The notes under the pieces are model-generated. The model saw nothing but the letters and a program-made list of their open reading frames with translations. It had not been told where the DNA came from and did not search any database. Made by a program: the position numbers and the translations under genes. Source: an uncultured Alphaproteobacteria bacterium (GTDB lineage: Bacteria; Pseudomonadota; Alphaproteobacteria; Rhodobacterales; Rhodobacteraceae). From it: DNA of 64,000 bases. The DNA lies in the NCBI GenBank assembly GCA_929200255.1, contig CAKMYZ010000017.1, positions 1 to 64,000 of the forward strand. The letters run 5' to 3'. This document shows positions 31,464 through 34,362 of the stretch, piece after piece (position 1 is the stretch's first letter; the number at the start of each line of letters is the position of its first letter).

Positions 31464-31500
31464 TGAACAGTTTGTGAACGCCATGTTTCGAACCGGTTCA
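31464..31500. promoter_or_regulatory. two PhoP-box-like 6-5-6 direct repeats in opposite orientation
   Basis: On the minus strand 31480-31464 reads CGTTCA-CAAAC-TGTTCA, and on the plus strand 31484-31500 reads TGTTTC-GAACC-GGTTCA. Both have the hexamer-5-hexamer geometry of the PhoP box (consensus TGTTTA or GGTTTA twice). They are three bases apart and lie about 80 bases before the 60-codon gene of a unit that ends in a PhoP/PhoQ-like pair. Function is inferred. Confidence 0.45.
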
Positions 31501-31579
31501 CCGCCTCTATGTCAATTACGACTAGTAGGGCGAATACTCGCGAATCTGCTGGTTCGTTGAGTTTGAGGAGAAAGACGGA

Positions 31580-31762
31580 ATGACCGCGACCAATTTTAGC
31601 TTTTTGAAGGATACCAGTGCGGAAGAATTCCGTCATAACGAGATAGAGATCATGACCGGTGCGATTGATGCGGTTGCAACAGAATCCGCTCGTTTTCCCA
31701 GTATTGATAGCGTTGTTTGTGATCTTGAAGAAAGATGGGAAACATTTGCTCTTGTAGCATAA
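31580..31762 (+). CDS. 60-residue hypothetical protein
   Basis: The ATG follows an excellent ribosome site (GAGGAGAAAG, five bases spacing). The acidic product starts MTATNFSFLKDTSAEEFRHN, continues EIEIMTGAIDAVATESARFP and ends WETFALVA. There is no signal peptide or membrane segment and I do not recognise a family. It is 37 bases upstream of the PepSY gene in the same direction and downstream of the PhoP-box-like sites, so it is probably the first gene of that unit. The region 31310-31579 before it holds only the sites described. Confidence 0.6.
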   Translation: MTATNFSFLKDTSAEEFRHNEIEIMTGAIDAVATESARFPSIDSVVCDLEERWETFALVA

Positions 31763-31799
31763 ACCCCATGTCAACAAATATGAAAGCCGACCGCTGAAA

Positions 31800-32315
31800 A
31801 TGGGTATTCAATTTAGAGCAGTTATGCTCGCAGCCATATTGGGTTTACCACCGCACAGCGCCGCGGCTGACATGCGCGAACTGTCTCAGGAACAGATGCG
31901 CCAACTGGTTGTACAGCAACAAGTCCTGGGTGCCGAGGCCATCATGACGAATGCTGCCGCGATGTTTGGCGGCGATGTGATGGACATCCGCGGGTTCCTT
32001 TCCGAAGGCCGGATGACATATCGCCTGCTTCTGAAGCGCGACGACGGGTCGGTCATTGAAGTACTTTTTAATGGGGTGAACGGTCAGCGGGTTTCCGACA
32101 ATAGCGAAATGGGGCGGAGCGTTTCGGCAAGTGCACGAAGCAACAACGGCAACGGTAACTCCGGCAACAACGGCAACGGCAACTCTGGCAACAACGGCAA
32201 CGGTAACTCTGGCAACAACGGCAACGGTAACTCTGGCAACAACGGCAACGGTAACTCTGGCAACAACGGCAACGGCAACTCTGGTGGCGGAAAAGGTAAC
32301 GGTCGCGGTAACTAG
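31800..32315 (+). CDS. exported PepSY-domain protein with NNGNGNSG repeat tail
   Basis: The 171-residue product has a signal peptide (MGIQFRAVMLAAILGLPPHS, cleavage near A23), a compact PepSY-like domain at about residues 25-98 (GGDVMDIRGFLSEGRMTYRL then LLKRDDGSVIEVLFNGVNGQ), and a low-complexity tail of six NNGNGNSG units (residues 115-162) ending GGGKGNGRGN. PepSY domains often occur in periplasmic proteins that modulate sensor kinases or proteases. Directly downstream are a response regulator and a kinase, so it may be an accessory sensor or a target of that system. The tail is very Asn/Gly-rich and may bind wall, metal or ions; this is inference. Confidence 0.75.
   Translation: MGIQFRAVMLAAILGLPPHSAAADMRELSQEQMRQLVVQQQVLGAEAIMTNAAAMFGGDVMDIRGFLSEGRMTYRLLLKRDDGSVIEVLFNGVNGQRVSDNSEMGRSVSASARSNNGNGNSGNNGNGNSGNNGNGNSGNNGNGNSGNNGNGNSGNNGNGNSGGGKGNGRGN
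32142..32285 (+). repeat. six tandem 24-bp coding repeats (NNGNGNSG)
   Basis: Six in-frame copies of a 24-base unit (AACAACGGCAACGGTAACTC plus four bases), differing only at third positions such as GGT/GGC and TCC/TCT. They encode the tail of the PepSY protein. High identity at synonymous sites indicates recent expansion by slippage or unequal exchange, so copy number may vary among strains. Confidence 0.95.
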
Positions 32316-32368
32316 GTCCGTGTGCATTTTTCTGGCAATTTCGAACACATCTCACTAGCAGTTGATGT

Positions 32369-33031
32369 ATGCGTATTCTTGTTGTCGAAGATGATGTCGA
32401 ACTCGCGGATCAAGTGAAGCTTTCCCTGTCTAGGGAAGGGCATGCAATTGATCTGGCCGCCGATGGCGAAGAGGCAAAGTTTCTAGGGGAAACTGAGCCC
32501 TATGACCTGATCGTGCTGGACCTTGGATTGCCCAATCTGGACGGTATCACTGTTCTGAAAGCGTGGCGAAACGCTGGTATCGACATCCCCATTCTCATTC
32601 TCACCGCCCGCGATGGGTGGGCGGACCGTGTTGACGGGCTTGATGCGGGCGCGGACGACTATCTGACAAAGCCCTTTCATGTACCTGAGTTGCTGGCGCG
32701 TTCGCGCGCCTTGCTGCGTCGTAATTCGACGCAACGCAATCCGGTGTTCAAAAAGAATGGCGTTAGCTTTGATAGCAGGAATGGTCGGGTCACTCTTGAT
32801 CAGCTTCAAGTCATCTTGACGGCTCAGGAAACTGCGGTGCTGTCCTATCTCTTCCACAATGCCAATCGTCCGATTTCGCGGACAGAACTGTCCGAACATA
32901 TCTATGAATATGGCGACGATCGCGATTCCAACACGATTGCGGTCTTTGTCACTCGGCTGCGCAAGAAGTTGGGGAATGATTTGATCCAAACGGAACATGG
33001 TCGAGGCTATTCGATCCAGCTTGATACGTGA
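32369..33031 (+). CDS. OmpR/PhoP family response regulator
   Basis: The 220-residue protein has a receiver domain (acidic E7 D8 D9, phospho-acceptor D51 in VLDLGLPNLDG, T79, K101 in LTKPF) and a winged-helix DNA-binding domain from about residue 125 (NRPISRTELSEHIYEYGDDR). The sequence resembles PhoP/QseB regulators. It lies 53 bases after the PepSY gene and overlaps the kinase start, and could bind the PhoP-box-like sites at 31464-31500. Confidence 0.93.
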   Translation: MRILVVEDDVELADQVKLSLSREGHAIDLAADGEEAKFLGETEPYDLIVLDLGLPNLDGITVLKAWRNAGIDIPILILTARDGWADRVDGLDAGADDYLTKPFHVPELLARSRALLRRNSTQRNPVFKKNGVSFDSRNGRVTLDQLQVILTAQETAVLSYLFHNANRPISRTELSEHIYEYGDDRDSNTIAVFVTRLRKKLGNDLIQTEHGRGYSIQLDT

Positions 33032-34362
33032 AGTCGCTTCGCAGCCGCGCTGTTGCCGGTGGGGCGGTATGGGCCACAGTTGTCACCGTGGCAGGTACAA
33101 ATGCTGTTGGCAGTTATCTTGATAACCTGACACTTTCGCGGTTTGATGAATTCCTGACGGCGCGGCATGCGCAGGTTGTTGTGGCATTGGCAAACAGCCA
33201 CGGCGAGGCCGAGGAGATGCCACACCAGATTGGTGATCCTGTCTATCAAAGACCATTTTCGGGAACTTACTGGCAGGCCCAAAGCGATGACGGGCGGGTA
33301 CTTGTCTCCCGATCAATGGCCGATACCCTTTTGCCGGCAATTCCATCCCCCGGAACCGATCCTACCGTGCAGAACCTAACTGGACCTGCCAATCAGGAAT
33401 TGCGTGCGTTGTCCCAAGAGGTGATGCTTGACGATGGATCGACCTGGATTGTCAAAGTTGCCTTATCGACCAACGCGATGGAAGCTGATCAAAACGAACT
33501 CAGACGCCGGTTGAACGTCTCTTTCGCTTTTGTTGGTGTTTTGGCGATTGCCGGCGCCTTGCTGATTGTCTGGTTTACGCTCAGGCCGCTATCGCAGCTG
33601 CGCAGGGATGTCATCGCGCGTCACGAATATGAAGGCGAACTGCCAACCGAAGACTATCCGCTGGAAGTTCGCCCGCTTGTCATTGAAATCAACAATCTTC
33701 TGGATCGGAACCGGGATATTGTTGATCGGTCCCGTAGGCAGACCGCTGATCTGGCCCATGCGATCAAGACTCCGTCCTCGGTGCTGCGCAATGAGTTGTT
33801 TGAACTGCAGTTGAGTGGCGCAGCTGTGCAAAGTGGCATTAATGCGCTTGATCGTCTGGACGCCCAGCTCAACCGTTCGTTTGCGCGGATGAAAGCCTCG
33901 CAAGATGGGGCATCGGAAAAAGAAGTCACCAGTCTGGATGTCAGTCTGGCCCGTCTGGGGCGCGCATTTACGGCATTGGCCAAAAACAAACACCGCGAGG
34001 TGATACTGGATATTCCGCCCGACCTTCACGCTAAAATTAACCAGATCGACTTTGAAGAGATCCTAGGCAATCTTCTGGATAACGCGCTCAAGTGGTCGAA
34101 TACTGCGATCTGCCTCAGCGCGGCGTCCTCTGATGAATGGGTGCAGATAAGCGTTGAAGATGACGGTGACGGCATTGCGCAAGACGGCGAGAAACGGGTG
34201 CTGATCAGCGGCCAACGTCTGGACGAGACCAAACCGGGGACCGGCTTGGGGCTGGCGATCGCATCTGATCTGGTTGCGGCCTATCAAGGCACGATTGATG
34301 TTGGCCGCTCTCAGACGATGGGCGGCGCGAGGATCGCCGTGAAATTGCCGTGCGCAGAATAG
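33028..34362 (+). CDS. PhoQ-like sensor histidine kinase
   Basis: The 444-residue membrane kinase starts at GTG 33028, overlapping the regulator stop. It has a first membrane segment (about 8-28), a periplasmic sensor region (about 30-163), a second segment (about 164-186) and a HAMP-like stretch. The phospho-acceptor H244 sits in DLAHAIKTP, a PhoQ-style box (PhoQ has DLTHSLKTP) rather than the usual DLSHELRTP. The catalytic domain has N347/N352 in NLLDNALKW, the G1 box DDGDGIA and TGLGLAIA. The stimulus is unknown; divalent cations or cationic peptides would be expected of a true PhoQ. Confidence 0.9.
   Translation: MKSLRSRAVAGGAVWATVVTVAGTNAVGSYLDNLTLSRFDEFLTARHAQVVVALANSHGEAEEMPHQIGDPVYQRPFSGTYWQAQSDDGRVLVSRSMADTLLPAIPSPGTDPTVQNLTGPANQELRALSQEVMLDDGSTWIVKVALSTNAMEADQNELRRRLNVSFAFVGVLAIAGALLIVWFTLRPLSQLRRDVIARHEYEGELPTEDYPLEVRPLVIEINNLLDRNRDIVDRSRRQTADLAHAIKTPSSVLRNELFELQLSGAAVQSGINALDRLDAQLNRSFARMKASQDGASEKEVTSLDVSLARLGRAFTALAKNKHREVILDIPPDLHAKINQIDFEEILGNLLDNALKWSNTAICLSAASSDEWVQISVEDDGDGIAQDGEKRVLISGQRLDETKPGTGLGLAIASDLVAAYQGTIDVGRSQTMGGARIAVKLPCAE

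Follow-up and report, generated by a model that had tools for sequence, protein, structure and literature searches.

Which signalling system is encoded by a compact block of genes in a 64,000-nucleotide stretch from an uncultured alphaproteobacterium of the family Rhodobacteraceae (contig CAKMYZ010000017.1, positions 1 to 64,000; hereafter the window), and what does that system control? The block comprises a 60-codon open reading frame (ORF), a gene for a secreted protein, a response regulator gene and a membrane sensor histidine kinase gene, all on the plus strand, and a 37-bp composite box (31464–31500) ends 79 bases before the small ORF. An initial annotation had described this arrangement as a PepSY/PhoPQ-like unit preceded by two PhoP-box-like sites. 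The four genes lie where it placed them, and the observation is real, correctly spotted and functional-looking; the PhoPQ name is wrong. Our comparisons indicate that the locus is probably an autoregulated PepSY-two-component operon of the kind represented by FeuN-FeuP-FeuQ and DbfQ-DbfR-DbfS. The operon type is known from other bacteria, and the Rhodobacteraceae variant adds a small protein, a composite box and an output rich in glycine and asparagine.

The box and its company in the genus

The box is built from two opposed direct repeats set three bases apart. On the minus strand, CGTTCA-N5-TGTTCA (31464–31480) contains the pair TTCA-N7-TTCA with an 11-bp period, and TGTTTC-N5-GGTTCA follows on the plus strand (31484–31500), with a strongly conserved right half-site and a weak left one. 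Along the plus strand, alignment and pattern scans therefore describe TGAAC-N6-TGAAC followed by a weaker GTTTC-N6-GTTCA. Strands, letters and the three-base gap are all as first annotated.

The same 37-bp block can be aligned in front of the same genes in all 13 of the units compared (our own, nine orthologues with 65–91% kinase identity and three at ~51%), in surroundings that are little conserved. Loss of the repeats from orthologous units had been named beforehand as one of two refuting outcomes, and the repeats were retained in every unit of this comparison. In the plus-strand repeat the left hexamer, which reads RTTYY instead of GTTCA, is the weakest part of the block. When genomes were scanned with TKAAC-N6-TKAAC-N6-TT-N8-GTTCA, allowing at most one mismatch and using the same pattern read backwards as a control, the 3.6-Mb own genome gave two sites versus none for the control, and the genus gave sites in 26 of 56 genomes versus 2 of 56. 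Across the wider family the yield (19 of 198 genomes versus 6 of 198) is nearer to background than in the genus.

To define the company that the box keeps, the 56 genus genomes were searched for kinases, and each of the 45 matches at E≤1e-100 was scored for the box, the PepSY gene and the small ORF, with the box evaluated over 17 specified positions and called at a score of at least 14. It is present in 30 of the 45 units; the other 15 score no higher than 13, which is about the level of shuffled sequence. The small ORF is found in 29 of the 30 units with a box and in none of the 15 without (two of these ORFs, those of L048 and L053, were identified by eye, and the sole miss, L200, comes from a partly masked locus). 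A PepSY gene precedes the regulator in 25 of the 45 units, all 25 being among the 30 with a box and none among the 15 without. Because the box accompanies both genes, autoregulation of the small gene and the PepSY partner is the natural reading, and this part of the initial proposal stands while its PhoPQ naming does not. Five units that lack PepSY retain the box and the small ORF, and the small gene is therefore a more faithful companion of the box than PepSY.

In a tree of 52 kinases, made up of the 45 genus units and seven from other genera, the box-less genus units form two separate clades, one with 4 rows and the other with 11, which suggests about two losses and not fifteen. Sequence comparison shows the conservation and spacing of the box and its co-inheritance with the small gene. 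Among 120 other genomes of the family, seven have a close kinase (E≤1e-80), and six of these carry both box and PepSY. Neither was seen in the seventh (G314), whose contig holds just 974 bases before the kinase.

Two further loci belong beside these units. The own genome contains a paralogous unit (L031; contig C3, ~135410–137905) with a kinase of 47–48% identity, a weaker box scoring 15 of 17 and a small ORF, in which no PepSY gene was found. In genome G024 (L093; contig C32, from ~21393 onward) a PepSY-type gene occurs together with a box and a small ORF on a contig for which no close kinase match was listed; this is possibly an orphan partner set.

A FeuP-type box across the class

A sample of 142 genomes from the class yielded 29 with a kinase match at E≤1e-40, our own included, and the 28 loci from the others were compared. 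An exact TTCA-N7-TTCA lies within 1500 bases before the kinase at 20 of the 28, against a mean of 0.20 for shuffled sequence. The spacing and placement are specific: at every spacer length between 0 and 15 other than 7, a TTCA pair occurs at no more than one of the 28 loci, TTCA-N7-TTCA downstream of the kinase at one, and TGAA-N7-TGAA, its opposite-strand form, at two. Exact GTTTA repeats before the kinase occur at none. Most of the boxes (16 of 20) end within ~70 bases of the longest ORF in the PepSY position before the regulator, and the remaining four sit inside the 5′ end of that ORF, whose true start may be further in. In Sinorhizobium meliloti, motif 3, TTCA-N7-TTCA, is described as the proposed FeuP site and is also present at feuN (PMC3616915). 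By its sequence, the box in the window is of the FeuP type.

The PepSY-like partner and related systems

The secreted protein (171 amino acids; 31800–32315, plus strand; signal peptide recognised by eye) consists of a PepSY-like domain at about residues 27–113 and a tail rich in glycine, asparagine and serine. Within the tail region, a tandem repeat of six 24-bp copies (96% matches; 32140–32284) encodes units of NNGNGNSG. When a profile of 16 genus proteins was aligned with hhalign to one of 12 PepSY-type proteins from the class, this single comparison gave a probability of 97.8 and an E value of 7.8e-13, so the PepSY label given initially is borne out by profile comparison and not by Pfam. 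Of ten proteins in the same position at class loci, chosen by hand from the 28 loci, six pass the Pfam PepSY cut-off, three match below it and one has no match.

The predicted structure has three strands, with one helix before and one after them, and a mean predicted local distance difference test score (pLDDT) of 78 from eight sequences. YpmB of Bacillus subtilis has the best query-normalised template modelling score among the 50 structures listed, a weak match at 0.49 (E 0.68), and the best PDB sequence match is a PepSY protein (E 0.44). No PF03413 match at E≤0.001 was found in the own genome, the PepSY domain had no match in a plasmid collection, and the PepSY proteins of the genus receive no usable Pfam or NCBIfam name. 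Named relatives of the secreted protein are from Rhodobacteraceae, including Loktanella sp. Alg231-35. The tail is a regular feature. Of 31 units, G023 is masked and G253 was left unread; among the 29 PepSY partners that could be read, 28 have a tail in which G, N, S and R make up at least 65% of the residues, and G040 is the exception.

The initial annotation knew of no described function for such an arrangement, a statement that has been overtaken by work on two periplasmic proteins reported to bind and restrain the kinases encoded alongside them, FeuN (PMC12486126, PMC3616915) and DbfQ (PMC12714742). FeuN is reported to be periplasmic, to bind FeuQ and to prevent hyperactive signalling (PMC12486126, a preprint). 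The PepSY protein DbfQ of Vibrio cholerae binds the sensor of its kinase, DbfS, with a Kd of 30 nM and favours the phosphatase state; the same report describes PepSY-kinase gene neighbourhoods across phyla and suggests positive autoregulation (PMC12714742). In the collection of papers searched, none mentions both PepSY and FeuN.

In FeuN-FeuP-FeuQ of S. meliloti, cotranscription is predicted for a small periplasmic protein, a regulator and a membrane kinase; the window likewise has the gene for a small exported protein immediately beside those for an OmpR-type regulator and a membrane-bound kinase, and TTCA-N7-TTCA stands before the operon in both (here on the minus strand, 31464–31480). The window differs in having this pair built into a 37-bp composite box whose two repeats oppose each other, in the small ORF ahead of the PepSY gene, in a tail rich in G, N, S and R on the PepSY partner, and in that the second site found adjoins a secreted Gly/Asn-rich protein gene instead of the cyclic-glucan exporter gene ndvA. 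In DbfQ-DbfR-DbfS and similar modules a PepSY protein is encoded upstream of the regulator and kinase, and here likewise the gene for a small PepSY-type protein is no more than four genes away from a kinase or regulator gene; PepSY below Pfam detection, the additional small gene, the tail and the composite box set the window apart, and the likeness is drawn from gene layout and PepSY character. PepSY genes also adjoin the two-component pair BqsR-BqsS (CarRS) of Pseudomonas aeruginosa, where the reported signal is ferrous iron. Comparison bears out the gene order in the window and the PepSY relationship; the conserved small protein, the G/N/S/R-rich tail on the PepSY partners and the second Gly/Asn-rich target behind a near-identical box are new here.

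A probable second target

The other box in the own genome (contig C4, 82857–82893, minus strand) is nearly identical to that in the window and precedes a gene for a secreted, Gly/Asn-rich (GN-rich) protein of 206 amino acids (L088; C4, 82165–82893). To judge by gene names read from the sequence, this gene is flanked by an ATP-binding cassette-type binding protein and a rimP-nusA-like region. The GN-rich protein has no Pfam or NCBIfam name. In the genome-wide scan, which covered composite boxes, neither of the two found in the own genome at up to one mismatch precedes a cyclic-glucan exporter gene.

Relatives of the C-terminal part of the GN-rich protein occur in 27 of the 56 genus genomes, comprising 19 of the 25 that have a box unit versus 8 of the 31 that do not. 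Below an E value of 1e-30, a line set after the list was inspected, matches remain in 17 of the 25 and in none of the 31. A box scoring at least 15 lies upstream of 12 of the 27 genes, and a thirteenth (G023) was located by pattern scan. The genes without a box are 4 of the 17 strong matches (G010, G050, G021 and G052) and all ten weak ones; for G021 the contig gives 263 bases upstream, in which the best box score is 11. In five genomes (G043, G047, G026, G015 and G013) the GN-rich gene diverges from the unit and shares an intergenic box with it, and in G052 it follows immediately after the kinase. Among 22 box sites read in other genera, four precede GN-rich proteins (G206, G347, G217 and G239), three precede TadE-like pilus genes (G199, G253 and G364) and one precedes a small ORF of this type (G239). 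The second site is evident from these comparisons of sequence, and the conserved promoter box lets part of the regulon be read in this way; the GN-rich secreted proteins are a likely purpose of the system.

TadE-like pilus genes behind the same composite box in other genera were recorded at L149, L147 and L140.

Proposed mechanism and alternatives

OmpR-type regulators usually bind as dimers on half-sites spaced by 11 bp. In the mechanism that we propose, the kinase would sense the envelope, and the phosphorylated regulator would bind the 37-bp box as dimers on its 11-bp-spaced TTCA half-sites, raising transcription of the small gene and of the PepSY, regulator and kinase genes. The exported PepSY protein would then bind the sensor domain of the kinase and push it toward phosphatase activity, closing a negative loop, and the same box would drive the GN-rich protein elsewhere in the genome. 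We infer autoregulation, restraint of the kinase from the periplasm and an envelope role from FeuN, DbfQ and the company of the genes. Binding by the regulator, the direction of control, and binding and inhibition of the kinase by PepSY are likewise inferred. There is good support for an autoregulated operon in which PepSY is the periplasmic partner, and such an operon would extend to Rhodobacteraceae the principle seen with FeuN and DbfQ, that a periplasmic protein restrains its own kinase.

Several observations weigh against this reading. The secreted protein of the window has no Pfam PepSY match at E≤1, and a PDB structure search with the PepSY model returned no match at E≤0.001. The model of the kinase sensor domain is poor (mean pLDDT 59). 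The five genus units that keep the box and small ORF without PepSY form two further groups on the kinase tree, so PepSY is dispensable. The units are related, with about two box losses on the tree, and so the co-occurrence counts are not independent. In the class, 8 of 28 loci have no exact TTCA-N7-TTCA box, and the likeness to FeuN-FeuP-FeuQ is drawn from layout and box form. In other genera, no target of the kinds listed above was recognised at 14 of the 22 box sites, leaving only 8 with one.

The alternative that survives best, and that we consider a real if minority possibility, is that PepSY activates the kinase, binds a metal or inhibits a peptidase, which would make the logic of the operon positive. 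The five units without PepSY are compatible with it, PepSY domains have been linked to metals and to protease inhibition, and PA2659 of P. aeruginosa is described as not predicted to bind its kinase (PMC12714742). FeuN and DbfQ, in contrast, share the layout of this operon and are reported to be negative regulators of their kinases.

A less probable alternative is that the box belongs to another regulator, such as CtrA, and that the unit is merely its client. The CtrA site is TTAA-N7-TTAA, and in some orthologues (G042, G044 and G026) the left pair does read TTAAC-N6-TTAAC or TTAAC-N6-TTAAT. However, the second base is mostly G, as in the window (19 of 29 and 22 of 29 genus unit sites scoring at least 15), the class-wide TTCA-N7-TTCA adjoins this same operon, the box and small gene are lost together, and the own genome has only two sites at up to one mismatch.

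The regulator (32369–33031, plus strand) is of the OmpR/PhoB family, with Response_reg and Trans_reg_C domains, and the kinase (33028–34362, plus strand), whose GTG start codon overlaps the regulator stop codon, joins a PhoQ-like catalytic half to a sensor domain of its own. Its H-box reads DLAHAIKTP, as first annotated (33748–33774; His codon 33757–33759), which we take to be similar to that of PhoQ. PhoQ is the best NCBIfam match of the kinase and its catalytic domain is the best solved structure by sequence, and the enterobacterial pair likewise has an OmpR-type regulator. The curated cut-offs are nevertheless missed widely: PhoQ scores 148 bits against 497 and covers kinase residues 176–439, leaving the sensor uncovered, and for the regulator PhoP scores 179 bits against 336, behind PmrA as best match (212 bits, itself below its cut-off of 330). 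In the collection of papers searched, none combines PhoP, PhoQ and Rhodobacterales. A true PhoP-PhoQ system, sensing Mg2+ or cationic peptides through PhoP boxes, is therefore rejected as very improbable, since both cut-offs are missed and the window box is GTTCA-type with TTCA-N7-TTCA (20 of 28 class loci, versus none with exact GTTTA-N6-GTTTA). The PepSY partner is a further difference, and in the sensor alignment, inspected by eye, no acidic cluster of the kind known from PhoQ was seen.

The small protein

The small ORF (31580–31762, plus strand) appears from its pattern of substitution to be a genuine gene: the ratio of nonsynonymous to synonymous substitution rates (dN/dS) is 0.12, 0.18 and 0.31 in three close pairs among the three closest genomes. 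No signal peptide is seen in its product, and Pfam and NCBIfam give it no name. The comparison thus points to a small protein without a database name that is tied to the box more tightly than PepSY is. All 28 aligned small proteins carry a C-terminal FPx(V/I)(D/E) or near form, a motif that is partly selected in that 27 of the 28 ORFs were picked with a pattern containing FP.

The kinase clade of the window comprises 12 units, our own included, and in 10 of them the protein ends in -LVA, -RVA, -LAS, -VAA or -RAA; the window protein ends in -LVA (31745–31762), and those of G015 and G013 are the two without such a tail. These endings resemble ssrA-type degradation tails. One speculative and rather unlikely extension is that the operon acts as an assembly checkpoint, in which the PepSY tail would recognise the Gly/Asn-rich exports (in some genera Tad-pilus parts) behind the same box. 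Exports building up in the periplasm would pull PepSY away from the kinase or keep it in place, matching output to export, and the small protein with the FPx(V/I)(D/E) motif would serve the loop as a rapidly degraded effector in the cytoplasm.

A profile built from 16 of the picked sequences or their C-terminal pieces finds the small protein in 30 of the 56 genus genomes. Away from units of this kind, eight of nine matches were read, the exception being a weak one in G002. Seven lie directly before a DUF2125-type gene, a name tested on one of the seven genes, and the eighth (G020) is near a contig start. A related small protein with FPDVDDIL or FPDVEDIL is encoded directly before a DUF2125-type gene in six genomes that have no close unit (L247, L249, L250, L251, L253 and L254).

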